Below are positions 37,540 through 52,953 of a stretch of DNA of 64,000 nt, piece after piece. The stretch is taken from the NCBI GenBank assembly GCA_017461235.1, contig JAFTYU010000013.1, positions 51,014-115,013 on the forward strand, written 5' to 3'. This DNA is from Clostridia bacterium (GTDB taxonomy: Bacteria; Bacillota; Clostridia; Oscillospirales; Acutalibacteraceae). The notes below the pieces were generated by a model, which was not told the origin of the DNA, searched no databases, and saw only the letters and a list, made by a program, of their open reading frames with translations. Made by a program: the position numbers and the translations under genes. Position 1 is the first letter of the stretch; every line of letters begins with the position of its first letter.

Positions 37540-37573
37540 TATTAAAAGGACAGAAAAATTGTACATATAATTG

Positions 37574-37780: not shown

Positions 37781-37781
37781 C

Positions 37782-38111
37782 TTATCTCTCCTCCTTATCA
37801 ATAAGCGCCTGAAACATTACAAGAAAGGTATCAAGTTGTTCTTCTGTTGCACGCTTTGACATATCAAACAACAGCTTGCGCTTCTTAAAGATGTCATCCC
37901 TTGTGTCTTCCACGGGGTCAAAGGTTTCATCAAAATACCCCAATGAAACGTTGAAGTACTGCGCAATTTTACTTAAGGTCTGCGTAGATAATGTTTTGGT
38001 TCTCCCTTGTTTTAGTTCTGATAAAGTACTCTTTGGTATGCCTGCCGCTTTGCATAGAGTGGCAGGCTTTATTCCTTTTTCGTTGCAGAGTTGCAAGATT
38101 TTTTCATACAT
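37782..38111 (-). CDS. XRE-family phage repressor
   Basis: A 109-residue protein. The N-terminal helix-turn-helix is IKPATLCKAAGIPKSTLSELKQGRTKTLSTQTLSKIAQYFNVSLGYF, typical of the Cro/CI-like XRE family. The C-terminal half is helical (EEQLDTFLVMFQALIDKEER), short, and has no S24 self-cleavage domain. That fits induction through an ImmA-type partner rather than RecA-driven self-cleavage. The ATG at 38111 is used; the open frame to 38252 runs through the control region. It is divergent from the structural genes, as expected for a lysogeny repressor. Confidence 0.88.
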   Translation of the reverse strand: MYEKILQLCNEKGIKPATLCKAAGIPKSTLSELKQGRTKTLSTQTLSKIAQYFNVSLGYFDETFDPVEDTRDDIFKKRKLLFDMSKRATEEQLDTFLVMFQALIDKEER

Positions 38112-38146
38112 ATTCACAGTATATACCCCCGTCTTTTTGTGCAAAG

Positions 38147-38162
38147 TTACGAAAATTCGTAA
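38147..38162. promoter_or_regulatory. Palindromic operator candidate near the repressor gene
   Basis: TTACGAA-AA-TTCGTAA, 7-base perfect arms with a 2-base spacer, about 35 bases upstream of the repressor start. It is a candidate site for repressor autoregulation. Confidence 0.5.
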
Positions 38163-38164
38163 AA

Positions 38165-38178
38165 CGAACAAATGTTCT
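38165..38178. promoter_or_regulatory. LexA (SOS) box candidate
   Basis: CGAACAAATGTTCT matches 13 of 14 positions of the Gram-positive LexA consensus CGAACRNRYGTTYC. It lies ten bases before the -35 of the rightward promoter and upstream of the repressor gene, so SOS control of either is possible. Confidence 0.6.
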
Positions 38179-38187
38179 GGAAATCCC

Positions 38188-38216: not shown

Positions 38217-38241
38217 GCGGTTGTGGTTCAGAAATCTGTAC
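38195..38241. promoter_or_regulatory. Inverted operator pair around the phage promoter
   Basis: GTACAGATTTC (38195-38205) and its exact inverse GAAATCTGTAC (38231-38241) are 25 bases apart. The first lies inside the -35/-10 spacer and the second about 15 bases after the -10. This is a typical arrangement for repressor sites that block transcription. Confidence 0.65.
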
Positions 38242-38314
38242 AAATCACACATATAATATAACCTATTTATTGCAATGTGTCAATACCAAAAATAGTACCG
38301 GAGGTGTATAAAAT

Positions 38315-38542
38315 ATGTCAAGAAATATTGAAGAGAGAGTTGAATGTCCGTTTTTTTTGAGACACAGCAAAACCGCAATTACCTGCGAAGGTGTGTTGGA
38401 CGGGACTAATTGTGTTCATACGTTTAAAAGCGCAGCGCAGAGAGATTTTTATGAAACCGGATTTTGTTGCGTTAAAGGCGGAAGAAGCTGTCAGCATTAC
38501 AGAAATGTTTCCATTCTGTACGAAAGGGGGCTGAAGGTTTGA
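38315..38542 (+). CDS. Small cysteine-rich phage protein
   Basis: A 75-residue protein with cysteines in CPFF, CEG, CVH, CC and CQHY contexts, suggesting metal binding. GGAGGTG precedes the ATG. Similar small Cys-rich proteins stand before terminase genes in many Firmicutes prophages. Function is unknown. It is the first gene of the rightward run and overlaps the next by four bases. Confidence 0.7.
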   Translation: MSRNIEERVECPFFLRHSKTAITCEGVLDGTNCVHTFKSAAQRDFYETGFCCVKGGRSCQHYRNVSILYERGLKV

Positions 38543-38805
38543 AGGAAAAGAAAGAGCCCGATAAATACAAAAGAGTTTCATCGGCGGCAGATAATATGAG
38601 TGCTTTGATTGATGACATTATTAAATGTGCACGCAAAAGCTTTCGTTCAACAGGTGATGCCAAGGTAGATGCCAAATTTTTAAAAGAAAGTGTCGGGGCA
38701 TTACGGGAGCTTTACGGCTTGCTGGGTGACTGCGAGGGCGTAACGGATTCTTCGGATGGTGTTGTTATCCGTTTCGAAAAGCAGCTTGAGGAGTGGAGCA
38801 AATGA
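38539..38805 (+). CDS. Small helical phage protein, possible terminase small subunit
   Basis: An 88-residue, mainly helical protein, start TTG at 38539 overlapping the previous stop. Charged residues are spread throughout (KEKKEPDKYKRVSSAADNMSALIDDII...). Directly before TerL (four-base overlap) is the usual place of the small terminase, but no clear helix-turn-helix is visible and it is short for that role. The call rests on position. Confidence 0.55.
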   Translation: MKEKKEPDKYKRVSSAADNMSALIDDIIKCARKSFRSTGDAKVDAKFLKESVGALRELYGLLGDCEGVTDSSDGVVIRFEKQLEEWSK

Positions 38806-40175
38806 AAGAGTTGTTCATTTCACCCCCGAATGCCAAACAAAAGGAGTTTTTTGAGTGTCACAATCGTTTTATCGGTTACGGCGGCGCACGCGGTGGCGGT
38901 AAATCCTGGGCATTGAGAACAAAATTTGTTTTGCTTGCTTTTGAGTATAGCGGCCTTAAGCTATTGCTTTTAAGAAAAACGCTTCCCGAACTTCGCGAAA
39001 ATCACTTGTTACCGTTGCTTGCGTTGTTGAACGGTATCGCAAGATACAAGCGTGATGAAAGAGCATTTATTTTTCCTAACGGGTCGAGAATAAGATTGGG
39101 TTATTGTGATACGGAAAATGATATTTATCAGTATCAGGGTCAGGAGTATGACGTGATCGGTGTTGAAGAATGTACCCATTTTACATTTACTCAAATTCAA
39201 TTTCTTATGACGTGTAACAGAACAACACGTACCGACTTCAAACCCCGAATGTATTTTACGGGAAATCCGGGCGGTGTGGGACACAACTGGTTTAAACGTC
39301 TTTTTGTTAAGGGCAGGTATGAAAGCGGTGAGGATCCCGATGACTATAAGTTTATACCTGCCACAATCGACGATAACACAGTGCTTATGAAAACAAACCC
39401 CGAATATGTAAAGGTTCTTGAAGCTTTGCCGGAAAAACTGCGTCAGGCACACCGTTTCGGTAATTGGGATATATTTGACGGGCAGTTTTTTGAAGAGTTC
39501 CGTGATGTTGCGGACAGGTACAAGGACGGTTCATTTACACACGTTATAGAGCCTTTTGAAATACCAAATGATTGGGTTATTTACAGATCCTTTGACTTCG
39601 GTTACGCAAAGCCGTTTTCATGTGCGTGGTGGGCGGTAGATTATGACGGCAGATTATACAGGATACTTGAACTCTACGGTTGTACGAAGGTTCCTGACGA
39701 AGGGGTTAAATGGCCACCTGAAAAAATTTTTTCTGAAATTGCAGAAATCGAAAGAACGCACAGGTGGTTGAAAAATAAACGTGTTATTGGCGTTGCAGAC
39801 CCTTCTATATGGGATGCTTCACGTGGTGAAGCAATTATTGAGGCTGCAGTAAGAAACGGTATTTACTTTGATAAAGGTGACAATAAAAGGCTTCCCGGTT
39901 GGATGCAGGTCCATTATCGTATGGCTTTTGACGATAACGGAATACCTATGATGTATATCTTTAATACCTGCAAAGGCTTTATAAGAACTATACCTGAACT
40001 GAAATTCAGCGTTACAAATCCCGAAGACCTTGATACAACGGGAGAAGACCATATTGCAGATGAAGTCAGATATATGTGTATGGCAAGACCGATTGCATCT
40101 ACATTTAAAAAGAAACAGGCTGTATTAGGTGATGACCCGTTGGATTTGAACAAGGGTTATTACAGAACAATATAA
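38802..40175 (+). CDS. terL: Phage terminase large subunit
   Basis: A 457-residue DNA-packaging motor. Walker A is GGARGGGKS (27-35), Walker B is YDVIGVEE followed by coupling residues (FMTCNRTTR), and the RNase-H-like nuclease domain starts at FDFGYAKPFS, with VADPSIWDAS and a late DEVRYMCMA. The ATG at 38802 is used, with GAGGAG eight bases upstream; a GTG nine bases earlier overlaps that site. ATGA overlap with the preceding gene suggests coupling. Confidence 0.95.
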   Translation: MKELFISPPNAKQKEFFECHNRFIGYGGARGGGKSWALRTKFVLLAFEYSGLKLLLLRKTLPELRENHLLPLLALLNGIARYKRDERAFIFPNGSRIRLGYCDTENDIYQYQGQEYDVIGVEECTHFTFTQIQFLMTCNRTTRTDFKPRMYFTGNPGGVGHNWFKRLFVKGRYESGEDPDDYKFIPATIDDNTVLMKTNPEYVKVLEALPEKLRQAHRFGNWDIFDGQFFEEFRDVADRYKDGSFTHVIEPFEIPNDWVIYRSFDFGYAKPFSCAWWAVDYDGRLYRILELYGCTKVPDEGVKWPPEKIFSEIAEIERTHRWLKNKRVIGVADPSIWDASRGEAIIEAAVRNGIYFDKGDNKRLPGWMQVHYRMAFDDNGIPMMYIFNTCKGFIRTIPELKFSVTNPEDLDTTGEDHIADEVRYMCMARPIASTFKKKQAVLGDDPLDLNKGYYRTI

Positions 40176-40185
40176 AGGAGTAGTT

Positions 40186-41844
40186 ATGTCAGAAAAAGAA
40201 ATTAAAAAAGGTTTTCAGAAAAATAAACCTGCAGAGAGTGTGGGCATTAACGGTGTTATCGGAAAGGAAGAAACCGAGAGAGCCGTCAGTTTACTGAAAA
40301 AATATAAAGAAGGTAAAAATGCACTTGAAAAAAGAATTGTGGATAACGAACAGTGGTTTAAAATGCGTCATTGGGAACAGTTGCGCGGAGAAAAAGGTAC
40401 AAACAATGCATCGGCGTGGCTTTTTAACTCCATAGCAAACAAACACGCAGATGCGATGGATAATTATCCTACCGTAACCTGTCTCCCGCGTGAGGCAAGC
40501 GATGAAACGGCGGCTTTGGTGCTTTCGCAGGTATTGCCGGTTGTTCTCGAGCGTAACGGTTTCGAAAAGATTTACAGTGATGCCTGGTGGTATAAGTTGA
40601 AAGCAGGTACAGCGGTTTACGGCATTTTTTGGAATCCTTTAAAAAGCAACGGTCTCGGAGATATCGAAATTAAACAGGTGGATGTGTTGAATTTGTTCTG
40701 GGAGCCGGGTGTTAAGGATATACAAAAAAGCAAAAATGTTTTTCACGTTGAACTTATGGACAACGAGACTCTTGTGTCGCTTTATCCGCAATTGTCGGGT
40801 AAGCTCGGTTCATCATCTGTTGAAATCGCACACTACGTATATGACGATTCTGTTGACACATCTGAAAAAAGCGCTGTAATCGACAGATACTACAAGGTAA
40901 TTAAAGATGGGGTGGAAACCGTTCATTATTGCAAAATTTGTAATAGCGAGTTGCTCTATGCATCGGAAAACGACCCTGAATATTGTGAACGCGGTTTTTA
41001 CGATCACGGGCAATATCCCTTTGTGTTTGATTCACTCTTTGTTGAAGAAGGCTCACCCTGTGGCTTCGGCTACATAGATATTATGAAGGATGCGCAGAAA
41101 CAGATTGATTTGCTGGGGAATGCCCTTGTAAAGAATGCGGCAATGGCAACCAATCCCCGATATTTTATCAATTCGTCAGGGGCGGTCAATGAAGAGGAGT
41201 TTGCCGATTGGAGCAATAATTTCGTCCATGTTTCGGGTAGCAATTTAGGCGAAGACAGCATCAGAGAAATACGTATGTCGGGAATCCCGGAAATATATCT
41301 CGGTATTCTTAACAGTAAAATTGATGAACTCAAAGAAACAAGCGGTAACCGTGATTTTTCACAGGGAGGTGTTTCAAGCGGTGTTACTGCGGCATCGGCA
41401 ATTGCCGCATTACAGGAAGCAGGCAGCAAGCTGACCCGTGATATGGTTAAGGGCGGTTACAGGGCATTCTCTGAACTGAACTCTTTAGCTGTTGAACTCA
41501 TACGTCAGTTTTACGATGAACCGCGTTTTTTCAGGATTACAGGTGATAACGGTGAGCAACAGTTTATTTCTTACGATAACTCGTCCATCCGTATGAAAAA
41601 TCAGGGCAATACCTTCGGTATCGATATGGGTTCAAGAAAACCTGTTTTCGATATAAAAGTAAATGCAGAAAAAGCCAGCCCGTTTTCAAAAATAAGTCAG
41701 AATGAACTTGCTTTGCAGTTGTACAATGCAGGGATGTTTAACCCTGAACTTCGTCAACAGGCACTTATAGCGGTAGGTATGATGGATTTTGAAGGGAAAA
41801 GTGCATTAATGGCAAAACTCAGTTCCGGCGGTGGTATGGTTTGA
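40186..41844 (+). CDS. Phage portal protein
   Basis: A 552-residue protein directly after TerL. An N-terminal charged helix region is followed by NEQWFKMRHWEQLRGEKGTNNASAWLFNSIANKHADAMDNYP, a typical start of P22-like portals, then beta-rich wing segments and a long helical part (QEAGSKLTRDMVKGGYRAFSELNSLAVELIRQFYDEPRFF). The position before protease, scaffold and capsid fits. AAGGAG precedes the ATG. It forms the dodecameric ring for DNA passage. The last four bases overlap the prp start. Confidence 0.88.
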   Translation: MSEKEIKKGFQKNKPAESVGINGVIGKEETERAVSLLKKYKEGKNALEKRIVDNEQWFKMRHWEQLRGEKGTNNASAWLFNSIANKHADAMDNYPTVTCLPREASDETAALVLSQVLPVVLERNGFEKIYSDAWWYKLKAGTAVYGIFWNPLKSNGLGDIEIKQVDVLNLFWEPGVKDIQKSKNVFHVELMDNETLVSLYPQLSGKLGSSSVEIAHYVYDDSVDTSEKSAVIDRYYKVIKDGVETVHYCKICNSELLYASENDPEYCERGFYDHGQYPFVFDSLFVEEGSPCGFGYIDIMKDAQKQIDLLGNALVKNAAMATNPRYFINSSGAVNEEEFADWSNNFVHVSGSNLGEDSIREIRMSGIPEIYLGILNSKIDELKETSGNRDFSQGGVSSGVTAASAIAALQEAGSKLTRDMVKGGYRAFSELNSLAVELIRQFYDEPRFFRITGDNGEQQFISYDNSSIRMKNQGNTFGIDMGSRKPVFDIKVNAEKASPFSKISQNELALQLYNAGMFNPELRQQALIAVGMMDFEGKSALMAKLSSGGGMV

Positions 41845-42161
41845 CAAAAATTTATTACCGCGAATATTACGACAGGGCATTAATAACCGTTGAGGGTCAC
41901 AGTGGATATGCACAGAGCGGTTCTGACATCGTATGTGCAGGAGTTTCAACGCTGGTTTTTGCTTTTGTTAATTGCATTCTGGATGAAGAAAGTAATGGTA
42001 GGCTGAAGCTTATACGCAATATTGTCCGCGATTCGTATGTGTGCTTTGAAATTGAAAAATTTGATTTTTCAAAAGAGCGCATTTCCGGAATTGTTGATGC
42101 ATTTATAACAGGCTTTCTGATGCTGGCTGAAACTTATCCGCAATGTGTAAAACTTGAATAA
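41841..42161 (+). CDS. prp: Phage-encoded Prp cysteine protease
   Basis: A 106-residue protein with the Prp signature: VEGHSGYAQSGSDIVCAGVS, containing catalytic His20 and Cys32. Prp in Firmicutes removes an N-terminal extension of ribosomal protein L27 at an FFA-type site. Here it sits in the head-gene block right before scaffold and capsid genes, both of which carry an N-terminal QFFA motif (see those entries). It is therefore predicted to be the phage's own prohead protease. The start is the TTG at 41841 overlapping the portal stop. Confidence 0.88.
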   Translation: MTKIYYREYYDRALITVEGHSGYAQSGSDIVCAGVSTLVFAFVNCILDEESNGRLKLIRNIVRDSYVCFEIEKFDFSKERISGIVDAFITGFLMLAETYPQCVKLE

Positions 42162-42289
42162 GTTAATAATCCTACGGGATTTTTATATATAAGAGAATTC
42201 TCATGACACTTCGGAAAGACGATGGTTTAAAAAGTACAGAGAGAATCATCTTCTGTACATTTGTTTATTTCAGAAAGAAAGGAAATACT

Positions 42290-43039
42290 ATGAAAAATTT
42301 ACGGTACACTCCCGATTTGCAGTTTTTTGCCGGTGAGGGAGCAGAAAATGCAAACGGGGAATCGGGCGTCGAATGTGCTGTCGCCGGGCAGAACAGTGCC
42401 ACACAGGTGAACATTGACGATGAATTTGCCCAACTTATTAACGGCAAATTCAAGGAACAGTTTACTAAAAGAACACAGGCAATTATCGACAAAAGATTCA
42501 GACAAACAAAAGAACTTGAGGAATACAAAGAGAAGGTTTCTCCTGTTGTTGAACATCTTATGGAAAAATACGGTGTTGAAGCAGGTGGTGAAGGAACACT
42601 TATTGAGCTTATGAACAAAGAAAATAATGTTGCTTCCGATGAAAAAATGACTTCACGCCGAAACGAACTAAGAAACAGAGTTGGTGACTGGCTCCGCCAG
42701 AGTGAAGATACTAAGAAGCTTTATCCCGACTTTGATTTGCGAAAAGAGCTCCGTGAAAACAAACTGTTTTCGCAACTTCTTTTAGGCGGCGCACCGTTAA
42801 CTGCGGCATACGAAACCGTGCATAAAGACGAAATTCTTTCAGGCGCTATGGCTTACACCGCCGACAAGGTTCGTGAACAGGTCGTCAAAGGTATTGAAGC
42901 AAAGGGCCGAAGACCAATAGAAAACGGTGTTTCTTCCGAAAGTGCTGTTGTTACATCGGTTGACGTTAATTCCCTGACCTCACAAGATATTCTTAAAATT
43001 TTGAAACAGGTTGAGAATGGCGCAAATATCAGTTTTTAG
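42290..43039 (+). CDS. Phage scaffolding protein with an L27-like cleavage motif
   Basis: A 249-residue acidic, helix-rich protein (KFKEQFTKRTQAIIDKRFRQTKELEEYKEKV), as expected of scaffolds. The N-terminus MKNLRYTPDLQFFAGEG contains LQFFA, matching the Prp site of ribosomal protein L27, with predicted cleavage after Ala14. The ATG at 42290 is used, as AAAGGA lies eight bases upstream; the open frame from 42203 is a read-back. It immediately precedes the capsid gene. The scaffold identity rests on position and composition; the motif is directly visible. Confidence 0.85.
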   Translation: MKNLRYTPDLQFFAGEGAENANGESGVECAVAGQNSATQVNIDDEFAQLINGKFKEQFTKRTQAIIDKRFRQTKELEEYKEKVSPVVEHLMEKYGVEAGGEGTLIELMNKENNVASDEKMTSRRNELRNRVGDWLRQSEDTKKLYPDFDLRKELRENKLFSQLLLGGAPLTAAYETVHKDEILSGAMAYTADKVREQVVKGIEAKGRRPIENGVSSESAVVTSVDVNSLTSQDILKILKQVENGANISF

Positions 43040-43061
43040 CGCCATCGGAAAGGAATTTTTT

Positions 43062-44072
43062 ATGACAGATTATATTTTTGACATTCAGTTTTTTGCGGCA
43101 GGTGACGAAGTGAACGCGACCACATCACAAGCACTTTCTGCCGAGATGAAAACATTTTACGATAAGACTCTTATCACTCTTGCTTCACCTTATCTTGTTC
43201 ACGACCAGTTCGGTCAGAAACGCGATATTCCAAAAAACGGCGGTAAGATTATCGAGTTCCGCAAATTTTCATCGCTCCCCAAGGCTCTTACACCCCTTAC
43301 CGAAGGTGTAACACCCACAGGCAATAAACTTAATGTTTCAAGTATCACTGCTACAGTTGAACAGTACGGTGATTATATTGAACAGACTGACCTTCTTGAG
43401 CTTACAGCGGTGGATAACACGATTGTTGAAGCAACAAAACAGCTTGCGTCACAGGCAGGTCTTACAATGGATACCATTGTAAGAAACGAAATCGTTGGCG
43501 GTACAAACGTTATGTATTGTCCTAAGGTTTCAGGCGAAAGCGAAACTGAGGTTACATCGAGAAGTCAGATTGACTCTACCGCACTTCTTCGTGTTAAGGA
43601 TGTTTTCAAAGCCGCAGCTGAGCTCAAGGCAATGAATGCTCCTAAAATCGACGGTTATTACGTTGGTATCATTCATCCCTATGTTGCTTACGATCTTATG
43701 CAGGAAGCAGGCAATCAGTGGATGGAGGTACAGAAATATGCAACGCCCGAAAATATGCTTAAAGGCGAAATCGGCTGTCTTGGCGGTGTGCGTTTTGTTG
43801 AAAGCACAGAAGCAAAAATCTGGAACGAGGGTGCAAACGGTGCTGCAGTATTTGCTACTCTTATCATCGGTGCCGATGCATACGGTGTAACAAGTGTAAA
43901 CGGTGGCGGTGTTGAGCATATCGTAAAACAGAAGGGCTATGGCAATGATCCTCTTAATCAGCGTTCTTCAGTGGGCTGGAAGGGTCTTAAGACTGCAAAA
44001 AGACTTGTTGAAGAATACCTTATAAGAATTGAAAGCGGTTCCGCATTCAGTTCAACTGCAAAAGCTAACTGA
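43062..44072 (+). CDS. N4-gp56-type major capsid protein
   Basis: A 336-residue HK97-fold capsid protein of the N4-gp56 family. It shows ALSAEMKTFYDKTLITLASPYLVHDQFGQKRDIPKNGGKIIEFRKF, then LTEGVTPTGNKLNVSSITATVEQYGDYIEQTDLLELTAVD, which are family landmarks. The N-terminus MTDYIFDIQFFAAGDE carries IQFFA like the scaffold, so cleavage after Ala12 or Ala13 by the phage Prp is predicted. The ATG at 43062 has AAAGGAA upstream. Confidence 0.93.
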   Translation: MTDYIFDIQFFAAGDEVNATTSQALSAEMKTFYDKTLITLASPYLVHDQFGQKRDIPKNGGKIIEFRKFSSLPKALTPLTEGVTPTGNKLNVSSITATVEQYGDYIEQTDLLELTAVDNTIVEATKQLASQAGLTMDTIVRNEIVGGTNVMYCPKVSGESETEVTSRSQIDSTALLRVKDVFKAAAELKAMNAPKIDGYYVGIIHPYVAYDLMQEAGNQWMEVQKYATPENMLKGEIGCLGGVRFVESTEAKIWNEGANGAAVFATLIIGADAYGVTSVNGGGVEHIVKQKGYGNDPLNQRSSVGWKGLKTAKRLVEEYLIRIESGSAFSSTAKAN

Positions 44073-44082
44073 TTATTAAAAG

Positions 44083-44103
44083 GGGTGCCTTTTTGGCACC
44101 CCG
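44083..44103 (+). terminator. Hairpin after the capsid gene, possible attenuator
   Basis: GGGGTGCC-TTTTT-GGCACCCC is a strong stem just after the capsid stop codon. No T-run follows, so it may stabilise the 3' end of the capsid message or slow polymerase rather than fully terminate. Confidence 0.6.
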
Positions 44104-44125
44104 ATGTATAAAGGAGATGTTATTA

Positions 44126-44347
44126 ATGGCAAATACTAAAGCTAAAGCAGAAAAGCTTGTAAGCGTTTTTATTCCCAAACAATCAAGAAATGACACAGAA
44201 CGTTTTATCGCAGTAAACGGTGAACGTATTCTTGTTCAGACAGGCAAAACTGTTGAAATTCCCGAAAGATTTGCGGAAGTTATCAAAAACAGTGAGAATA
44301 TGGCGGCGGTTTCTGCCGCGTATATCGATGCTAATATTTCCCTTTAA
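44126..44347 (+). CDS. Small phage structural or connector protein
   Basis: A 73-residue protein with VSVFIPKQSRNDTERFIAVNGERILVQTGKTVEIPERFAEVIKNSENM. Such small proteins directly after the capsid gene are often head decoration or connector factors, but no specific family is recognised. The ATG at 44126 has AAAGGAG upstream; an upstream in-frame ATG lies next to the hairpin at 44083. Confidence 0.65.
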   Translation: MANTKAKAEKLVSVFIPKQSRNDTERFIAVNGERILVQTGKTVEIPERFAEVIKNSENMAAVSAAYIDANISL

Positions 44348-44358
44348 GGAGGGGTTCT

Positions 44359-44736
44359 GTGACTTTACAAAGAGCGATAGAGCTTTTCGATTGTGAAAGG
44401 GCAAACGCCATAGCTCTGGCTGAAAAAATACGTTGGATTTCTCAACTGGATTACAAGATAAGTTCTGAAATTTGTGAACCGAGAGGTGCAGAGCCGTTTA
44501 AAGGTTATAGCGAAACATCACCCCTTACAACCGAAATTAAGGCCCCGGATGAATACGGTGAGATATACGGGTTGTATCTTAATATGAAACTTGATTATAT
44601 GAACGGCGAAATTGCCCGTTTCAATAATTCGGCGTTGCTTTTCAACAATATGTACAAGGACATGAGTAATTATTTGAATCGAAAGCAGGCAATTCTTAAG
44701 AATACAGGGATAAAGGCGGGGGATTTGTATGTATAA
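44359..44736 (+). CDS. Phage head-tail connector-type protein (unknown family)
   Basis: A 125-residue helical protein starting at a GTG with GGAGG upstream. Repeated helices (AIALAEKIRWISQLDYKISSEIC, YLNMKLDYMNGEIARFNNSALLFNNMYKDMSNYLNRKQAIL) fit a small connector or neck protein, in the place where gp6/gp16-like adaptors lie. No direct match is recognised, so the call is by position. It overlaps the next gene by eight bases. Confidence 0.6.
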   Translation: MTLQRAIELFDCERANAIALAEKIRWISQLDYKISSEICEPRGAEPFKGYSETSPLTTEIKAPDEYGEIYGLYLNMKLDYMNGEIARFNNSALLFNNMYKDMSNYLNRKQAILKNTGIKAGDLYV

Positions 44737-46486
44737 GCCACGTCTGAATGAGCTTCACACTAACCGCGAAATCATAACACGTTTCAAAGGGTACGATAAT
44801 AATCTTATAACGGATGAGAATGCTTTTTCGTTTACGGAAAACATAGGGTTCGGCGCATATCCTGCACTTTCGCCCAGAAATAAACGTGTGTTTTTTAACG
44901 TGAGCGGTGAAAATCTTCATGGCGTATTTTCTAAAGAGTGTATTTCATATATCAATAACGGTTGCTTGTATTACGGCGGAAATAAAGTTTCGGGTTTGTT
45001 TTTTCCCGATATACCCGAAGAACGCAAGTTTGTTTCTTTGGGTGCAAAACTTATTGTGTTTCCGGATAAGGTTTATGTCAATACCGAAAATCTTACGGAA
45101 TACGGGAAGCTTGAAGCGGAGTTCACAAGCAACGGTGAAGTTACCGTGGGTATGTGCAAGGGCGACGGCACTTTGTACGGTGCTTATGCGGTAGGGTCGG
45201 TTATGCCCGGTAATCCTTCCGACGGCGATTTGTGGCTTGATACATCTTCTGATGAGCACGTATTAAAACAGTATTATGACGTTCTCGGCTTCTGGCAGGA
45301 TATTGCTCACACTTACGTAAGAATCAACAGTGTAGGTATCGGGAAGAATTTTAATCTGTATGACGGTGTAGCTTTACACGGCTTTGATGAAGTAGGGTTG
45401 AACGGAACACATATAATCCGTGACAAAGGTGATGATTATATTGTAATTACGGGAGTTTTGGCAAATTCTTGCATAATCACGGACGAAATCAAGGTCGAAA
45501 GAAAAGTGCCGGATATGGATTTTATCTGCGAACACGGCAACAGAATATGGGGTTGCTCATCTAAGAATAATGAGATTTACGCTTCAAAGCTCGGCGACCC
45601 GGCGAATTTTAATTCCTTTATGGGTATTTCTACCGATAGTTATGCCGTGAGCGTCGGTAGTGACGGCGTTTTTACTGCAGCAACGAGCTACAGGGGATAC
45701 ATACTTTTCTTTAAAGAAAACTGTGTTCATAAAATCTACGGGCAAAATCCGCCATATACCGTAACGACATCGTATATACGCGGCGTTCAGAAGGGCTCGC
45801 ACCGTTCTGTGGTGTGTCTTAACGAAACACTTTATTATAAATCCGTAGGCGGTATCTGTGCCTATGAAGGCGGCGTACCCGTGTGTGTTTCCCGGGCTCT
45901 CGGAGATGAATATTATTACGATGCAGTGGCAGGCTCCTGCTTCAACAGATACTACGTCTGCATGTCCGATAAAAACGATGTGCGCCATCTTTTCGTTTAT
46001 GATGAAGACAAGGCCTTGTGGGCACGAGAAGACACTATTGATATCCGTGAATTTTCCCGTAATAATTGCAATCTTTATTTTATTATGAAGGACGGTGACT
46101 TAAACCGTTTGGGTCTTATAGACGGAGAAAACCGCTATGGTTCTTTTACGGGAGAACTGAAGGGCTTTTCGGAAGAAAAAGCTTTCTCCTGGTGCGCGGA
46201 AAGCGGTTTGTGGGGATTGGAATTGCCTGAAAATAAGTATTATTCCAATATTTGTGTGAGAGCTTGCGGTACGAAAGGGTCTAAGCTTAATGTCTGGTTC
46301 GAGTTTGACAGCAGTAAAAACTGGGTCAAGCAGCTCGAAACAACTTTTGAAAAGACAGGCTCTCTTATGGTGCCGTTTATAACACCGCGTTGTGACCATA
46401 TGCGAATAAAAATACAGGGCACGGGAGATATAAAAATATACAGCATTTCAAGAAAAATTGAATCGGGGAGTGAGCTGAATGTATGA
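44729..46486 (+). CDS. Phage packaged-DNA stabilisation/tail hub-like beta-propeller protein
   Basis: A 585-residue beta-rich protein. The segment EHGNRIWGCSSKNNEIYASKLGDPANFNSF, then VHKIYGQNPPYTVTTSYIRGVQKGSHRSVVCLNETLYY, recalls P22 gp10-like stabilisation proteins that plug the portal of short-tailed phages. No tape measure or tail tube gene is nearby, supporting a podovirus-like particle. Function is inferred. It overlaps the next gene by eight bases. Confidence 0.65.
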   Translation: MYKPRLNELHTNREIITRFKGYDNNLITDENAFSFTENIGFGAYPALSPRNKRVFFNVSGENLHGVFSKECISYINNGCLYYGGNKVSGLFFPDIPEERKFVSLGAKLIVFPDKVYVNTENLTEYGKLEAEFTSNGEVTVGMCKGDGTLYGAYAVGSVMPGNPSDGDLWLDTSSDEHVLKQYYDVLGFWQDIAHTYVRINSVGIGKNFNLYDGVALHGFDEVGLNGTHIIRDKGDDYIVITGVLANSCIITDEIKVERKVPDMDFICEHGNRIWGCSSKNNEIYASKLGDPANFNSFMGISTDSYAVSVGSDGVFTAATSYRGYILFFKENCVHKIYGQNPPYTVTTSYIRGVQKGSHRSVVCLNETLYYKSVGGICAYEGGVPVCVSRALGDEYYYDAVAGSCFNRYYVCMSDKNDVRHLFVYDEDKALWAREDTIDIREFSRNNCNLYFIMKDGDLNRLGLIDGENRYGSFTGELKGFSEEKAFSWCAESGLWGLELPENKYYSNICVRACGTKGSKLNVWFEFDSSKNWVKQLETTFEKTGSLMVPFITPRCDHMRIKIQGTGDIKIYSISRKIESGSELNV

Positions 46487-47441
46487 CCTTAATTTAAGTG
46501 TTCCCAATATCACTTCCCGAAAATACTCTAACGATAATCGCTTTCTGCTCCTGAAAAATTATCTTTATGAGTTGAACGAAACTCTGTCTTATGCACTTGC
46601 TGAAAAAACACAAAGTGAAATTTCAGCGATTACCGGACAGATAAACACTATGGAAAAAATACAACAGGAAACGGCAACAAAGCTCAGTTCTTTAAACACA
46701 TTAAAATTTAAGGAGCTGAAAGAAAAAATTCTCAGTACGGCAGAAGAGATAGAAAAGGACTGCAACTCTGCCATAGAGCAAAGCGAAAAACAGATTCTAC
46801 AGACTGTTACGTCGGATTTTGTGAGCCGGAGCGAATTCGGTGAATACTCTGCAAATACAGAAACTGCAATAAAACAAAATTCAGATGACATAAAGCTTGT
46901 GGCTGAAAATACCGAAACTATTACAACAGACCTTGAAAATTTTAAAGATTCAACGAAAGCTGAATTTACCGTTCAGGCAGAAGCCATATCATCACAAATA
47001 GAAACTCTTTATATAACTAAAGAAGATGCGCTGGAACTGGAAAACAGAGTAAATTCTCAAATTATATCAACGGCAGAAAACGTTACGGAAACTTTTTCTT
47101 CATCGGTTTCAGAAGTGAAAAATGATTTGAGTTCTGTCGGCGGTGAGTTGAGCGAGCTTGTTTCATCACTTGATATTTATATAAGGCGCGGTGAGTTGGA
47201 AAAAGGTGTTTACGGTGTGGAAATCGGGCGAAGTGACAGTAACATAAAAGCCCGTTTTACAAACAACAGACTCTCATTTTATCAGGGTGTAGTTGAAGTT
47301 GCATACGTTTCAGGCAGTACTCTTTATATTACTGATGCACAGATTCTTGATTATTTAAAGATCGGTAATTCCAATGACGGATTTTTTCTCTTTGACACTA
47401 CCCAAAACGGTCTTGAAGTGAGGTGGATGGATGGCAATTAA
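46479..47441 (+). CDS. Phage tail fibre or baseplate-like coiled-coil protein
   Basis: A 320-residue protein. The first ~230 residues are heptad-rich helix (SEISAITGQINTMEKIQQETATKLSSLN... and repeated EN/EK/ES segments), consistent with a trimeric stalk. The C-terminal region KGVYGVEIGRSDSNIKARFTNNRLSFYQGVVEVAYVSGSTLYITDAQILDYLKIG is a motif common in the last part of Firmicutes phage tail proteins. It overlaps the following gene by 11 bases. Confidence 0.75.
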   Translation: MYDLNLSVPNITSRKYSNDNRFLLLKNYLYELNETLSYALAEKTQSEISAITGQINTMEKIQQETATKLSSLNTLKFKELKEKILSTAEEIEKDCNSAIEQSEKQILQTVTSDFVSRSEFGEYSANTETAIKQNSDDIKLVAENTETITTDLENFKDSTKAEFTVQAEAISSQIETLYITKEDALELENRVNSQIISTAENVTETFSSSVSEVKNDLSSVGGELSELVSSLDIYIRRGELEKGVYGVEIGRSDSNIKARFTNNRLSFYQGVVEVAYVSGSTLYITDAQILDYLKIGNSNDGFFLFDTTQNGLEVRWMDGN

Positions 47442-49194
47442 GTATTACGGTTCTTGTACGGGTACGTCATCAGGTAAATATGATTTATGGATGACTGTGG
47501 CTCAGAATTCTCAGAATATTTCTTCAAATACAAGTAATCTCACAGTAAAAGTATTTTTGAAAAGAAATGACGGGTATCCGTCATCAGCATATAACCTTAC
47601 GGAAAGCGAAAATAATATAAAGATAAGTGTGGGCGGAGTCAGTAAAGTCAATAAGAATATTACCGTTGATACACGAAATAACGTTACGGTCACACTTGCC
47701 CAGTGGAAAGGTGACGTAACGCATAATGCAGACGGAAGTTTGTCCGTTGCAATCAATGCGGTGTTTACAATGGGCAACACTACTCTTTCCGGCGGTAGCG
47801 TAAAAGGAAGTTTTAAGTGTACAACCATACCGAGAGCATCTTCAATGAGTTTTTCGTCAACTTCTGTTAATCCCGGCTCTGATGTTGATGTCAGTATTTC
47901 TTCCGCATCAAAAAGCTTTACTCACAGGATTATATGGGGTATAGGAAATAAAAACAGCAGTGCGGAGCTTGCCGCGAGCGTAACGTCATATGTGTTAAGT
48001 GTCCCTGTGTCATGGGCATCACAGTTAACAGATGCATCAAAAGGCGTATTGAATGTTTCTTTAAAAACTTATAATAACGGAGTGTTGATAGGCACGGTTA
48101 AATACAGTATCGGTTTTGTTATACCGAAAACAGATGATTATTTACCGGATTTTGACATCGCGTTCGAGCGCATTGATAACAATGTGCCCGTTGATTGGGG
48201 TGAATACCTGAAGGGTATAAGTCAGCTTGGGGTTATTGTCAGTAACGGCTCATACAAATACGGTGCAACGTTTGATTCGGTAGCGATTACGGTGTGTGGT
48301 GTGACAAAAAGAGCTTTTCCCGCGGTGTTTGATTTAACAGCTTCGGGCGATATTACCGTATCTGTTACGGTAAGAGACAGCAGGGGCTTGAGCAGGAAAA
48401 AATCAAGGATAATAAATGTTTGCGATTATTCTCCGCCGAGCGTGAATATGAAAAGCATAACACGATGTGATGCTGACGGAAGTGTAAACCCACGGGGAAC
48501 ATATCTTTGTATGAATTATGATGTAAGCTACAGCGATGTTAACTCCAAGAATACATATAATCTTGTGTTGAAATACAGAAATACGAAAGCTCAGTATTAT
48601 AGCGATGATACTTGTGTTGTCGGCTCGCCGTTTGTTTTCGGTGACGGTAACATAGGTGAAGGCTCTTCGTATATCGTGAGTGTGGGTATCAGTGACGAAG
48701 TGTTGAAGTCTGGTGAGATTTTATGTTCTGTTCCCGTAGCTGATATTCCTTTTAATATCCGCAAAGGCGGCAAGGGTGCGGCGTTCGGTAAATTTGCAGA
48801 GAACGATAATGAATTAAGTGTTGCCTGGGATTTATATGTTCAGGGTAATCTGACAGTTGACGGTACGCTTAATTATGTGAATCTTAATTTTCAGGAAACA
48901 GAGTATTCGGAAAATGCAGCTTGCGAAATAAGATATTATCCGACCTTGCGTGAAGTTCTTCTTCGGATTCGTTTTAAGGTGTTAACAGACATCCCGAAAG
49001 GCGATGTATATACGGTTATTAAAATACCTGACAAACCACCTGCGATTTTTACTCCGCTTCAAAGTGTGGTGGGACATTTCACAGACTGCAGCAGTAGTGT
49101 GGGTGTTTTTAATACGGGTGATGTTGCTATCCGTACCGAAACGGATATTGCCGCAGGCACGTATGTGTATATAAGCGGAAGTTATATTGTATAG
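47431..49194 (+). CDS. Phage minor structural protein, DUF859-like
   Basis: A 587-residue beta-rich protein. The N-terminus (YYGSCTGTSSGKYDLWMTVAQNSQNISSNTSNLTVKVFLKR) and later RASSMSFSSTSVNPGSDVDVSI fit the DUF859 family of phage tail or receptor-binding-associated proteins. The C-terminal part includes AFGKFAENDNELSVAWDLYVQGNLTVDG, a region often found in tail appendage proteins. Function is inferred as host contact. Confidence 0.75.
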   Translation: MAIKYYGSCTGTSSGKYDLWMTVAQNSQNISSNTSNLTVKVFLKRNDGYPSSAYNLTESENNIKISVGGVSKVNKNITVDTRNNVTVTLAQWKGDVTHNADGSLSVAINAVFTMGNTTLSGGSVKGSFKCTTIPRASSMSFSSTSVNPGSDVDVSISSASKSFTHRIIWGIGNKNSSAELAASVTSYVLSVPVSWASQLTDASKGVLNVSLKTYNNGVLIGTVKYSIGFVIPKTDDYLPDFDIAFERIDNNVPVDWGEYLKGISQLGVIVSNGSYKYGATFDSVAITVCGVTKRAFPAVFDLTASGDITVSVTVRDSRGLSRKKSRIINVCDYSPPSVNMKSITRCDADGSVNPRGTYLCMNYDVSYSDVNSKNTYNLVLKYRNTKAQYYSDDTCVVGSPFVFGDGNIGEGSSYIVSVGISDEVLKSGEILCSVPVADIPFNIRKGGKGAAFGKFAENDNELSVAWDLYVQGNLTVDGTLNYVNLNFQETEYSENAACEIRYYPTLREVLLRIRFKVLTDIPKGDVYTVIKIPDKPPAIFTPLQSVVGHFTDCSSSVGVFNTGDVAIRTETDIAAGTYVYISGSYIV

Positions 49195-49196
49195 GA

Positions 49197-50411
49197 GTGA
49201 TAAACATAGCATATTCAACTATTTCTTACGGCTCATCGGGCAGTGATGTAAAAAAACTTCAGGAAACACTGAATAATCACGGATATTCTTTGGCGGTTGA
49301 CGGTCAGTTCGGCAGTAAAACACAGGCGGCTGTAAGAGATTATCAAAAGAAAAACGGTCTTGTGGTTGACGGTATTGTAGGAACAAAAACATGGGGCAGT
49401 CTTACGTCGAAGGGTTCGGCCTCATCGTCCTCTTTGTCATCTTCCGGAGTCTCGTCTAAAAAGGTATCTCTTCCTAAAAGCACGCCAAGACCCGAATATG
49501 AAAAAAGTGATGCGGTACAGTCTGCAGAAAATGAATTGAAAAGCTGGGAAAATAACAAGCCCGGTGAGTATGAAAGCAAATATTCAGAGCAGATAGAATC
49601 AATTTTAAACGACATTCTCAACAGGGAAGAGTTTAATTATAATCTCAATGCAGATCCGTTGTATCAGCAGTACCGCGAACAATATATTCAAAATGGCAAA
49701 AAAGCTATGATGGATACCGTGGGTCAGGCAGCTGCACTTACGGGCGGTTATGCCAATTCCTACGCGGTGAGTGCAGGCAATCAGGCTTACGACGAATATC
49801 TTAATGAACTTAATTCCATTGCTCTCGATTTGCGTGACAGAGCATACACTCTTTACTCGGATGAAGGGGACAGGATGCTTGAAGACATAACCTTGCTTCG
49901 TTCACTTGACGGTGATGATTACGACAAGTATCTCGGAGAGTTGGAAAGATATTATTCTGACGGAGAGTTCCTGCTTGATAAACTCGTTTCAATGTCTGAT
50001 GCAGAGTTTGATGCATTTCTTGCTCAAGTCGATGCATGGGAGAACGACAGGGACTATGAGTTCGACAAGTATCAGGATGCACTCGACAGACAGGAGTTTG
50101 AAAAAGAAATGGCGTTCAAGGAAGCGGAGGCAAAGCGTGACCAGGCGAACGAGGACCGTAACTATGCACTTGCGTTGCGTAAGTCTTCGTCATCAGGAAG
50201 CTCTTCATCGAGCAAATCATCTTCCGACAAAAATAATTCCGACAGCACGAAAGCTGCCCCTGTTACATATAAAGAGTTCTGTTTGCGGACAGGGGTTACA
50301 ACAATTATGACAGAGAAAGAGTATAACAGCAGTTCATCTATGCAAAAAACGTTCCCCACATATCAGAAATACCTTGCAAAGATGTACAAAAAGTACGGGG
50401 AGGCAAGCTAA
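49197..50411 (+). CDS. Phage peptidoglycan-binding virion protein
   Basis: A 404-residue protein with a peptidoglycan-binding domain 1 at residues 13-66 (GSSGSDVKKLQETLNNHGYSLAVDGQFGSKTQAAVRDYQKKNGLVVDG). A Ser-rich linker follows, then a long, acidic helical region with LTGGYANSYAVSAGNQAYDEYLNELN, and a second Ser/Lys linker near 320-345. It may be an internal virion or tail-tip protein touching the cell wall during entry. The GTG start overlaps AGGAG (49193-49197), so the true start is uncertain. Confidence 0.68.
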   Translation: MINIAYSTISYGSSGSDVKKLQETLNNHGYSLAVDGQFGSKTQAAVRDYQKKNGLVVDGIVGTKTWGSLTSKGSASSSSLSSSGVSSKKVSLPKSTPRPEYEKSDAVQSAENELKSWENNKPGEYESKYSEQIESILNDILNREEFNYNLNADPLYQQYREQYIQNGKKAMMDTVGQAAALTGGYANSYAVSAGNQAYDEYLNELNSIALDLRDRAYTLYSDEGDRMLEDITLLRSLDGDDYDKYLGELERYYSDGEFLLDKLVSMSDAEFDAFLAQVDAWENDRDYEFDKYQDALDRQEFEKEMAFKEAEAKRDQANEDRNYALALRKSSSSGSSSSSKSSSDKNNSDSTKAAPVTYKEFCLRTGVTTIMTEKEYNSSSSMQKTFPTYQKYLAKMYKKYGEAS

Positions 50412-52319
50412 ATGAAGGTGTCGGTAACAAAAAATGATGTAGTTATTGTAGAGTGTGACAGAATTAATGAAGGTGAGGTTTGCGTAAATACCTGCGAGTT
50501 TGAGCTGCCCGAGTGTTTTAAGGGACTTTGCATAACTGCCGTGTTCAGCAATATTCCTGTTCCGGTATATGATAATAAATGCAATGTCCCGTCTTTGAAA
50601 AAAGGTACGGCAGCTCTGGGGGTTTATGCATATCGTGAAAAGGAAGACGGAATTGAACTTATGTATTCACCGAAGCCGACGTCATTTTATGTTGGTGATG
50701 GTTCATACTGTGATGAAATCGCTGTTGAAAGCATACCTGCAATAAGCGAATTTGAACAGTATTGCAAAAGCTTTTCCGGAAAGGTCGAAGACAGTCTCAG
50801 GAAGTTAGATGCAGTCTCATCTAAAAGACATTACAATACATTTTCTGTTCTGGGTGATTCTTATTCTACATTTGTTGATTTCGTAACCCCAAACACCAAT
50901 TTGTGTTGGTATCCTGCGGGAAACGAAAACGCAACAGGTTCAAACAATGACGTTTCAAGCATTGAACAGATGTGGTGGCATATTTTTGCAAATCAATATG
51001 AAAGCGCGTTGCAGGTGAACAACTCTTACAGCGGTTCGCCTATATGTTATGATGGCTGGGGTTCAGGTCAAACGGACAGTGCGGAAACAGGCTTTATAGC
51101 AAGGGCAAATGATATCGGAACACCGGAATTGATTTTTGTCTTCGGCGGCTCGAACGACGATTGGGTGAACGCTTCAATCGGTGAGTATAAATATTCTGAT
51201 TGGACTGAAGAAGATTTTATTTCCTTGAGACCGTCGCTTGCATATTTGTTGAATTATCTGAAACAACACAATGCAGGAGCAAAAATTGTTTTCATTCTTA
51301 ATGAAAATCTTGATGCGGAAATTGATGCTTCGGTGTTGACAATATGCGGTCATTATGGTGTTGAAGTTATTGAACTTGAAAATATAGCGGTTTCAAACGG
51401 ACACCCCACAATCGCAGGTCAGGCGAGTATAGCACAACAGGTGTATGATTTTATAACAAGTTCAAAAATAACTGAATTTACTGCAACAATTACCAAAAAT
51501 GATTTTGCATCAGGTTTTACTTTAGATGACCTTAAGCCTTATTTAACTGTTACGGCAACTTATGATGACGGAACAATTGAAAATATTACTGATTATCAGT
51601 TGAGCGGAAGTGTTGCGATTGGAACAAATACTATAACGGTATCTTACGGAGTATATACAACGACTCTTGATATAGTTGTGTCGGAAGTTGAATTGACAAG
51701 TATATCTGCACAGTTATCACAAACAGAATTCAATATGGATGTAACTTTCGACAACATAAAACCTTATCTGACCGTTACAGTACATTATGCAGATGGTTCA
51801 ACATCAATAGTCAATGATTATACATTAAGTGGTGAGCTTAATGTGGGTGAAAATACAATAACAGTTTCTTATGGTGGTAAAACAACTACTGTAATAGTTA
51901 CTGTGGAAGTTGCAAGTGGTACATATGAATTGTCAGTAGAAACTTTAGACAACTCACAGTATCAGTATTATTGCCCTGTTTTCAATACACCTATAAATGA
52001 AAGTGTGCGGATAGTGTTTACCCGTGACTTTGAATTGTTTTCAACAAATTCAAGTATCAAGGGCAAAGATGCTTTACCGTCATCGTTAAAAGATGGCGGA
52101 GCACAACTCGGCACAGTTGATATATCGGACGAATATGTCGACCAAACAATTTCTTTAACAAGTGAATACGCATATTTCGTGTTATCAATCGGAACTAAAG
52201 CGGTCAATCCGCTTACTCTGAAAAATTTCCATTGTTATGTTGACGGCTTTGAAGTTGAACCTGTTGACTGGGTTGCTTATAGCGGTGAAAATGAAATAAC
52301 TGTAGAAAAACTTGCTTAA
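50412..52319 (+). CDS. Tail protein with SGNH-hydrolase domain and Ig-like repeats
   Basis: A 635-residue protein. Residues about 145-345 form an SGNH/GDSL-type hydrolase: the VLGDSYSTF block with nucleophile Ser150, GGSNDDW (245-251) as the oxyanion block, and NGHPTIAGQ with His331. Two group-3 bacterial Ig-like repeats follow (about 352-430 and 435-510), then a C-terminal beta domain. A receptor-processing esterase or deacetylase acting on cell-surface glycans is plausible; the substrate is unknown. The catalytic aspartate that usually precedes the histidine is replaced by SNGH. Confidence 0.8.
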   Translation: MKVSVTKNDVVIVECDRINEGEVCVNTCEFELPECFKGLCITAVFSNIPVPVYDNKCNVPSLKKGTAALGVYAYREKEDGIELMYSPKPTSFYVGDGSYCDEIAVESIPAISEFEQYCKSFSGKVEDSLRKLDAVSSKRHYNTFSVLGDSYSTFVDFVTPNTNLCWYPAGNENATGSNNDVSSIEQMWWHIFANQYESALQVNNSYSGSPICYDGWGSGQTDSAETGFIARANDIGTPELIFVFGGSNDDWVNASIGEYKYSDWTEEDFISLRPSLAYLLNYLKQHNAGAKIVFILNENLDAEIDASVLTICGHYGVEVIELENIAVSNGHPTIAGQASIAQQVYDFITSSKITEFTATITKNDFASGFTLDDLKPYLTVTATYDDGTIENITDYQLSGSVAIGTNTITVSYGVYTTTLDIVVSEVELTSISAQLSQTEFNMDVTFDNIKPYLTVTVHYADGSTSIVNDYTLSGELNVGENTITVSYGGKTTTVIVTVEVASGTYELSVETLDNSQYQYYCPVFNTPINESVRIVFTRDFELFSTNSSIKGKDALPSSLKDGGAQLGTVDISDEYVDQTISLTSEYAYFVLSIGTKAVNPLTLKNFHCYVDGFEVEPVDWVAYSGENEITVEKLA

Positions 52320-52325: not shown

Positions 52326-52628
52326 GTGAATGTGGCTGAAAAAATAGTTTTAATTGCATCACTTTTAACTGCATTGGGAGTAATAATCACTACCGCAGTA
52401 AAGATTTATAAATTCATCCGCAAGTGGGAAAAGTGGGTTGAAGAACAGACGGAGCATTCCCTTGATAACTACTTATCTATCAAACGTCTTACAATTATGT
52501 CCCACGAAATACCGTTGAGCGAGCGTATTGCCGCCGGAGAAAAGTACATAAAATACGGCGGAAACGGCGAAGTGAAGCATAAATACGATGAGTTAGTGGA
52601 ACTTTTACCTAAAGAAAATGATAAGTGA
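52326..52628 (+). CDS. Small single-pass phage membrane protein, holin-like
   Basis: A 100-residue protein with one N-terminal membrane helix (IVLIASLLTALGVIITTAVKIYKFI), then a charged soluble region. It lies before the phi-LC3-type holin and the endolysin, so a lysis-related role is likely. GTG at 52326 or 52332 are both possible starts. Overlap with the next frame is minimal. Confidence 0.6.
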   Translation: MNVAEKIVLIASLLTALGVIITTAVKIYKFIRKWEKWVEEQTEHSLDNYLSIKRLTIMSHEIPLSERIAAGEKYIKYGGNGEVKHKYDELVELLPKENDK

Positions 52629-52665: not shown

Positions 52666-52953
52666 TTGAAACTGAATATTAAAGCGAGATTGAAAAATAA
52701 AACGTTTGTGGTGAGCACAGCGGTGCTTGTTGTTGCTCTTATTTACAGAGTTCTTTCGGTGTTTGATGTTTTTCCTTCTGTCAGTGAGAGCGAAATCGGT
52801 GAAATTATAACGCTTGCGGTGAACGTTTTAGCCCTTGTGGGTGTAGTCGTTGACCCTACTACCGAAGGTATAAGTGACAGTGAGAGAGCAATGACCTATT
52901 TAACCGAAAAAGATGTGCGTGTAACAGAAAATAAGGAGAATTACATTGGCTAA
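52666..52953 (+). CDS. Phage holin, phi-LC3 family
   Basis: A 95-residue protein with the phi-LC3 holin pattern: MKLNIKARLKNKTFVVSTAVLVVALIY, then EIITLAVNVLALVGVVVDPTTEGISDSERAMTY. Two membrane segments are visible. The start is the TTG at 52666 with GAGGT about eight bases upstream; the longer frame from 52618 is not needed. It makes the membrane lesions through which the endolysin exits. It overlaps the endolysin start. Confidence 0.88.
   Translation: MKLNIKARLKNKTFVVSTAVLVVALIYRVLSVFDVFPSVSESEIGEIITLAVNVLALVGVVVDPTTEGISDSERAMTYLTEKDVRVTENKENYIG

Follow-up and report, generated by a model that had tools for sequence, protein, structure and literature searches.

Phage 80alpha is among the closest described cases of head proteins cut by Prp, the cysteine protease that acts on ribosomal protein L27. 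According to PMC5744158, its capsid and scaffold proteins carry an N-terminal site of the L27 type, which the Prp of the host cuts at the F|A bond, and 13 and 14 residues are removed. Here, we describe a 15.9-kb cassette of phage genes in a 64,000-nucleotide stretch of a Clostridia bacterium (contig JAFTYU010000013.1; this whole stretch is called the window). Like 80alpha, the cassette has L27-type sites in its capsid and scaffold-position proteins; unlike 80alpha, it encodes a Prp of its own between portal and scaffold, from a lineage apart from the host Prps. We consider it probable that this private Prp trims scaffold and capsid, and that the cassette is a domesticated, chromosomally inherited element of podovirus type, akin to a gene transfer agent (GTA) such as FpGTA of Faecalibacterium or to the PBSX element of Bacillus subtilis.

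Phages phiFL3A and TP712 and the Dorea phage DO134P1 likewise carry a Prp (DUF464) gene in the head module, and their scaffold/coat proteins begin with L27-type sites (LQFFA/LQIFA, LQRFA/LQRFS and LQLFA/LQVFT, respectively). They differ from the cassette in that their capsids fall outside the capsid profile by which we collected relatives, and their phage records measure 38-42 kb. In these records Prp is annotated as 'ribosomal protein', as 'unknown' or not at all, and in the RefSeq copy of phiFL3A as 'peptidase'. The other member of MEROPS clan CR is the protease of Streptococcus phage Cp-1, a cysteine protease said in the matching passage of PMC9405229 to cut the capsid N-terminus. Cp-1 is unlike the cassette in its leader of about 40 residues and in being a phi29-like phage. 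Its orf13 (104 amino acids), which we take to be this protease, aligns with PF04327 over nearly the whole model at only 18.5 bits, under the cut-off of 27. Apart from the remark on Cp-1 (PMC9405229), no paper among the open-licence PMC matches listed describes a phage- or GTA-encoded Prp with L27-type capsid and scaffold sites; an earlier mention elsewhere is possible.

The head genes and the predicted leaders are listed below in window positions. Aligned genomes are 13 members of the same genus, picked for carrying the cassette (second) Prp.

40186..41844, plus strand: P22-like portal protein (PF16510, 104.9 bits)
41841..42161, plus strand: Prp cysteine protease, 106 amino acids, with His20 and Cys32 (PF04327); 106 amino acids in all 13 aligned genomes
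42290..43039, plus strand: scaffold-position protein, 249 amino acids (phrog_13908), between Prp and capsid
42290..42328, plus strand: predicted scaffold leader, 13 residues ending in QFF, read from the sequence; F|A bond placed by analogy with 80alpha (PMC5744158, excerpt)
43062..44072, plus strand: major capsid protein, 336 amino acids (phrog_1357, PF13252, PF25209)
43062..43094, plus strand: predicted capsid leader, 11 residues ending in QFF, read from the sequence; F|A bond by the same analogy

The genes at 40186-44072 run in one direction, and both coordinates and profile matches agree with the initial annotation, which had proposed the order portal, Prp, scaffold, capsid and the pair His20/Cys32. 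The Prp gene begins with a TTG that overlaps the portal stop, while ATG starts both the scaffold and the capsid gene. The Prp gene product matches PF04327 (MEROPS family C108) with 57.6 bits, above the curated cut-off of 27, and phrog_4478 ('peptidase'). The catalytic pair lies in a GHxGxxxxGxDxVCA context, and His20 and Cys32 are the two invariant columns (37 out of 37 aligned Prps). By sequence, the family profile also matches the solved Prps 4peo and 7kld (S. aureus), 2g0i, 2idl, 7jvs and 1s12. The capsid protein is a 'major head protein' (phrog_1357, 290.1 bits), whereas the scaffold-position protein matches phrog_13908, of 'unknown function' (170.8 bits), and two further phrogs only at E 0.045 and 0.087. 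We call it a scaffold from its place between Prp and capsid and from the annotated scaffolds of other phages.

Both proteins begin with an L27-type site, the scaffold with MKNLRYTPDLQFF|AG and the capsid with MTDYIFDIQFF|AA. The motif had been pointed out before (LQFF|AG and IQFF|AA), and within the window these two proteins are the only ones that carry it. Most likely, the phage-lineage Prp would be dedicated to cutting the F|A bond of these sites during particle assembly, and would thereby remove a leader of 13 residues from the scaffold and of 11 residues from the capsid, as host Prp does for 80alpha. A check of the host L27 extension and the host Prp, proposed in the initial annotation, found a long L27 beginning MLKINIQLFAHKKG and a separate, intact Prp between L21 and L27.

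With the capsid as query, 143 relatives were found among viral contigs, of which 80 loci were fetched, and 88 matches in bacterial genomes, which gave 78 loci; the latter include contigs of genus genomes, and some viral contigs may be near-copies of those. L002, which is the window itself, and L009 were excluded from the counts of site frequency, covariation and Prp presence. We defined a strict site as [LIVMF]Q[FLHMI]F[AGSCT] within the first 45 residues. Without dereplication, 82 of 156 capsids and 70 of 137 scaffolds carry it (some scaffold starts were set by rule and may be wrong), compared with 0 of 1224 other open reading frames (ORFs) of the loci, which have at least 120 amino acids and a ribosome-site-like start and are not all real genes. 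The L27-type site in these proteins is not due to chance. In many of the relatives (L102, L104, L106 and other loci, with matches of 1.2-1.3 kb) the capsid matches are split, as if about 80-100 residues had been inserted near position 260 of the window protein.

Covariation between site and enzyme was measured on 94 loci with a capsid site, 84 of them with both sites and 66 left after dereplication at 15% Prp distance. Over these 66 loci, Prp correlates with the capsid site (r 0.36; 0.25 as partial on the capsid body; p 0.0002) and with the scaffold site (r 0.31; 0.23 after removing the capsid body; p 0.0002), and the two sites correlate with each other (r 0.45; partial 0.41; p 0.0002). Two sites within a locus resemble each other more closely than sites from different loci do (distance 0.383 versus 0.584, p 0.0001), although the site finder takes the best-looking site per N-terminus and so favours likeness of all sites alike. 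Capsid sites of the FHLF[DA] or FYTFD type or near forms (L055, L064, L065, L077, L079) correspond to one Prp clade (100/99). The LRLFD/LRLFE sites are less tidy: L061, L068 and L154 share a clade (L154 with the capsid site LQLFA), and L057 and L162 lie outside. A single branch (97/97) splits 33 L27-linked host enzymes from 70 phage enzymes in the Prp tree, which has few columns for many rows and draws its host enzymes mostly from one family and order; within these limits the tree contradicts a recent capture of Prp from the host. Since the sites covary with Prp and the phage enzymes form a lineage of their own, we read this sequence pattern as evidence that the phage Prp cuts these capsid and scaffold sites. 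The arrangement of a phage-lineage Prp beside two motif-bearing proteins is conserved and covaries across a wide clade, and it recurs in phiFL3A, TP712 and the Dorea phage.

With a single Prp sequence as query, no relatives were found among the viral contigs; Prp genes were found with an iterated profile, for which true matches have E values of at most 1.5e-5 and noise of at least 2. Presence was counted at the 101 loci whose stretch 5' of the capsid gene measures 4.5 kb or more; these reduce to 94 distinct loci after removal of identical N-termini. A phage Prp occurs at 81 of them. At 68 of the 94 it lies in the head cluster, usually directly 5' of the scaffold gene; in seven viral records of 37-50 kb it is found elsewhere, 3' of the portal in the five examined (L011, L034, L047, L051, L070). 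In six assemblies (L100, L103, L133, L136, L138, L140) a TerL-portal-Prp module is located on a different contig from the scaffold-capsid pair, and we infer that the two form a single element. A portal precedes the capsid and Prp is missing at seven loci (L075/L157, L094, L155, L159, L160, L161, L164), and six could not be assigned (L029, L052, L062, L101, L137, L156). Two seeming absences were rejected: that of the six assemblies, each of which holds the TerL-portal-Prp module elsewhere, and that of the clade with LNLQ[RQ]F[GA] sites, in which seven records of 37-50 kb carry Prp elsewhere and the records without a Prp match, six out of 17, are fragments of 5-16 kb. The six split assemblies (L100/L170, L103/L173, L133/L171, L136/L279, L138/L167, L140/L168) look as if the genes for one particle had been divided between two places in the chromosome, similar to the two operons of FpGTA; the split modules of L138 and L140 lie on contigs of 54-215 kb.

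A strict site in capsid or scaffold is present at 42 of the 68 loci with Prp in the head cluster, at two of the seven with Prp elsewhere, at all six with Prp on another contig, at five of the seven with a portal and no Prp, and at three of the six unassigned ones. Taken together, strict sites occur at 5/7 loci without a phage Prp and at 50/81 with one (Fisher p 0.71). There is thus no one-to-one link between site and gene, and a strict site cannot serve as a sign of an own Prp. The co-occurrence of gene and motif that the initial annotation expected in relatives holds for the gene, with 81 of 94 loci, and fails in that the strict site does not predict it.

This bears on the possibility that the host Prp does all the cutting and that the cassette enzyme is redundant or serves another substrate, e.g., L27 during induction. 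The five of seven distinct loci that keep a strict site with a portal and no Prp are what one would expect in that case, as are two sister genomes of the genus, G042 and G053, which lack a Prp between portal and scaffold and keep both sites. These two have one Prp per assembly (76 and 83% complete), the L27-linked one, and their capsid and scaffold sites equal the host L27 site from P5 to P1'. Among 12 Prp-bearing genus members, in contrast, the capsid site equals that of the host L27 in four and the scaffold site in none (all six positions), which indicates drift of the scaffold sites. Furthermore, the length and catalytic pair of the cassette Prp are kept in all 13 aligned members with a host Prp alongside in the 12 for which the host copy is available, a phage Prp is found at 81 of 94 loci, and the sites covary with it. 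Altogether, we regard exclusive cutting by the host enzyme as distinctly unlikely.

At the Prp-less loci the host Prp would probably take over, by analogy with 80alpha. L155, L157 and L160, which are far from the genus cassette, have a portal, no Prp and capsids without a leader; their scaffold sites read ISLQFFA, ISLQFFA and IGLQFFA, and the L27 of each of their hosts reads RISLQFFAHKKG. In four of the five Prp-less members for which host L27 could be read, the scaffold and L27 sites are identical; L161 and L164 have neither Prp nor site. As only two groups are involved, the association of Prp loss with host-L27-like sites is no more than suggestive at the sequence level. Head maturation independent of the host Prp, as initially proposed, thus appears likely where the sites have drifted; it is not forced, because strict sites do not depend on an own Prp: five of the seven Prp-less loci keep one, and G042 and G053 keep theirs. 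PF04327 has no match at all in nine of the 60 genomes searched, one of which is a single contig rated 100% complete.

We turn to the cassette as an element. Phage genes are confined to 37782-53635, and the G+C content of this part (41.0%) is close to that of the flanks (40.6 and 40.5%). The ten flank genes scanned are chromosomal, with an AMP-binding protein, two oxidoreductases, YunB, a phosphoglycerate mutase and a TIM-barrel protein on the left and leucine-rich-repeat (LRR), solute-binding, ABC and MFS proteins on the right. The remaining cassette genes are:

37782..38171, minus strand: helix-turn-helix (Cro/C1-type) repressor, left edge of the cassette (PF13443, 51.1 bits); adjoins the cassette in 12 of the 13 aligned genomes, not in G055
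38315..38542, plus strand: small ORF, 75 amino acids, no family; order conserved
38539..38805, plus strand: small ORF, 88 amino acids, without a match in Pfam or PHROG, perhaps the small terminase, judged by position; in 13 of 13 aligned genomes
38802..40175, plus strand: large terminase, TerL (PF04466, PF03237), in 17 of 22 genus genomes; the start taken is an ATG with a ribosome-site-like stretch, where the ORF list has the GTG at 38793
44126..44347, plus strand: small conserved protein 3' of the capsid gene (phrog_15239)
44359..44736, plus strand: conserved protein, head completion by position (phrog_12105)
44729..46486, plus strand: internal virion or short-tail protein (phrog_511, 205 bits)
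46479..47441, plus strand: tail-associated protein (weak phrog_18110 and phrog_1885)
47431..49194, plus strand: tail protein, DUF859 (PF05895; phrog_372, 246.6 bits)
49197..50411, plus strand: peptidoglycan-binding protein (PF01471)
50412..52319, plus strand: GDSL lipase-like protein with Ig-like domain (PF16255, 182 bits)
52326..52628, plus strand: small ORF, 100 amino acids, no family; matched in some relatives
52666..52953, plus strand: holin (PF04531, 65.7 bits)
52946..53635, plus strand: amidase endolysin, right edge of the cassette (PF01520); ends at most 9 bases from the stop codon of the convergent LRR gene in all eight genomes that have this flank

The initial annotation spoke of a phage; the carrier is no ordinary one, being a 15.9-kb cassette inherited at one chromosomal site within the genus. 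Among the cassette ORFs scanned with Pfam and PHROG, no integrase or recombinase and no replication gene was recognised, three small ORFs being without a family. The two features of a temperate phage, an own integration enzyme and own replication genes, are thus missing from the scanned ORFs. Phage-derived head and tail genes without genes for integration and replication are one of the features of a GTA, and the cassette shows it, although one of the three small ORFs may be an unrecognised gene of either kind.

Phages with fixed attachment sites are common, and one may ask whether ordinary temperate phages of one family have repeatedly entered the same site, with their integrase and replication genes missed or located elsewhere. 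The assembly indeed has two tyrosine integrases, and both lie on other contigs; there is none (PF00589) on the contig of the cassette, and a resolvase (PF00239) has no match anywhere in the assembly. Insertion at a tRNA gene was rejected, as there is none at 36-56 kb of the window, and no exact direct repeat of at least 12 bases occurs between 37300-37800 and 53600-54960, the only stretches compared. We consider recurrent entry improbable, not least in view of the locus and the shared descent described below.

Of the 22 genus genomes, 19 have the capsid and 17 have TerL; among 150 genomes sampled evenly across the family, 15 have a capsid relative, two of these from the genus. Sixteen of the 19 capsid-bearing genomes have the cassette Prp and two (G042, G053) do not; in G060 a contig end cuts the cassette. 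A YdjC-like deacetylase is the next recognised gene upstream in ten genomes (G041, G043, G044, G045, G050, G051, G052, G056, G057, G059), and LRR and transporter genes lie downstream in eight (G000, G044, G045, G046, G047, G051, G056, G059). Since five genomes carry both flanks, they mark one locus, shared by 13 of the 22 genomes; in the remaining capsid-bearing ones, with short contigs or flanks that were not recognised, the locus could not be assigned. The stops of amidase and LRR gene are at most 9 bases apart in all eight genomes with the downstream flank, which speaks against repeated insertion. The LRR gene itself (53636-54721 of the window) encodes a BspA-type protein, converges on the amidase gene in every one of these eight genomes and may belong to the cassette rather than to the flank.

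Inheritance together with the host is also seen in the distances. Those of six concatenated cassette proteins follow those of host L21, Prp and L27 with r 0.92 (p 0.0001) in 12 of the 13 genomes, G045 being left out as it has no ribosomal locus, and seven of eight single-gene tests give r 0.78-0.94 (p 0.0005). Such tracking is not expected from recurrent entry and, with the fixed locus in 13 of 22 genomes, is in good agreement with a GTA. The catalytic pair of Prp and both sites are retained in all 13 aligned members (one capsid site reads IQCFA), and the head genes are of full length, G055 being cut by a contig end; stops in the repressor alignment in three genomes probably result from extension past its start. 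Median ratios of nonsynonymous to synonymous substitution (dN/dS; pairs with dS <1.5) are 0.048 for TerL, 0.053 for the capsid, 0.087 for Prp, 0.191 for the scaffold and 0.268 for the gene at 44359, the lowest and highest values in the cassette being 0.048 and 0.268, compared with 0.056-0.206 for flank genes; two tail genes have no usable pair. The structural genes are therefore under purifying selection, as expected for a GTA, within the limit set by synonymous saturation. In our preferred reading, the cassette would predate the divergence of the sampled species of the genus; since then it would have been inherited mainly with the chromosome and kept intact by selection. It would be a domesticated factory for podovirus-type particles, comparable to a GTA or PBSX, with lysis genes of its own to release them.

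Several observations weigh against this reading. The cassette Prp is not indispensable, because G042 and G053 have lost it, and the cleavage as such is dispensable in 80alpha, where uncleavable capsid and scaffold still give viable phage (PMC5744158). The dN/dS values rest on few pairs (two for TerL, two for Prp, 43 for the capsid), as synonymous sites are near saturation. The tail genes of G052 are shortened. The tail gene at 46479 does not track host distances (r 0.36, p 0.087). Some forks of the element tree are not those of the host tree; in the former, for example, G044 and G051 are joined (0.985). A different upstream flank is seen in the window and G046, and a different downstream flank in G041, G050 and G057, which calls for rearrangement at the cassette edges. 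At the locus, G049 shows no cassette gene within the 12 kb read, and G054 keeps only tail and lysis remnants beside the deacetylase; the latter is a decayed copy at the same locus and in this respect also speaks against repeated entry of phages. Points in favour of such entry are capsid relatives in viral contigs of 40-44 kb and, in G052, two further capsid relatives (91% and 65%) at other places, with diverged Prps; both make phage exchange possible. The extra copies in G052 (G052:C12 and G052:C23; L220, L222, L268) may be true prophages and a source of exchange.

Two side observations concern the viral relatives. In L034 (2-4942), and also in L029, L039, L047, L051, L052, L062 and L067, an ORF of at least 1228-1665 amino acids with an open left end precedes the scaffold gene; that of L034 has no Pfam family at E 0.001. 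The viral record of L034 further encodes a tail-type protein with a cysteine-rich C-terminus (L175:10108-12155, weak Gp58 match) and, immediately after it, a radical-SAM protein (PF04055, 63.7 bits), as if, judging from the two genes, the phage modified its own tail protein.

From the genes of the cassette we infer cleavage, particle formation and DNA packaging. The retention of these genes at one fixed place, together with a private protease, suggests a particle that serves the bacterium itself. That use could be killing or lysis, as by PBSX or a tailocin, any packaged DNA being left undelivered. Lysis genes, tail proteins and repressor are all kept, clostridial domesticated prophages and tailocins retaining capsid genes have been described (PMC10538166), and the authors of the FpGTA study leave the same question open for Faecalibacterium (PMC12946183). 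On the other hand, head genes are among the most conserved (median dN 0.084 for the capsid and 0.114 for TerL) and a tail gene is the least (0.70), a pattern which packaging fits better than head-less killing. PBSX keeps heads as well, which qualifies this argument, and we judge a killing device to be somewhat unlikely.

More specifically, the cassette may be a podovirus-type GTA of hindgut and rumen Clostridia that has retained its own Prp beside a working host Prp since before the species split, a view that we hold tentatively and at a little less than even chances. If so, particle production would include leader cleavage as a controlled step, independent of ribosome assembly, and where the private enzyme was lost, the cleavage sites would be those of the host L27. 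Why the proteins of 80alpha are cut by Prp is an open question, because its uncleavable variants are viable (PMC5744158). That a lineage has held a private Prp at one chromosomal place since before its species diverged, with the host enzyme alongside, suggests that in some setting the cut pays. Natural variants, in which Prp is retained or lost or the sites have changed together with it, allow its value to be tested. GTA-like elements known from Gram-positive bacteria are few, and the cassette is a further candidate.

Like PBSX, a defective prophage kept by its host as a particle factory, the cassette would have been retained for its particles; PBSX is of another phage type and about twice as long. 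PBSX is also named in PMC12946183, where packaging of chromosomal DNA has just been reported for this group of gut Clostridia. FpGTA, the subject of that paper, shares with the cassette a podovirus-type set of small terminase, TerL, portal, scaffold and capsid genes, the lack of replication genes, the retained lysis genes and the conservation in a gut Clostridia genus, by description and not by sequence. It differs in its two separate operons and in that its text, by word search, mentions no protease; its particles, with DNA of about 9 kb, have been shown. The podovirus-type genes and purified particles of FpGTA make the GTA reading of the cassette plausible (PMC12946183).

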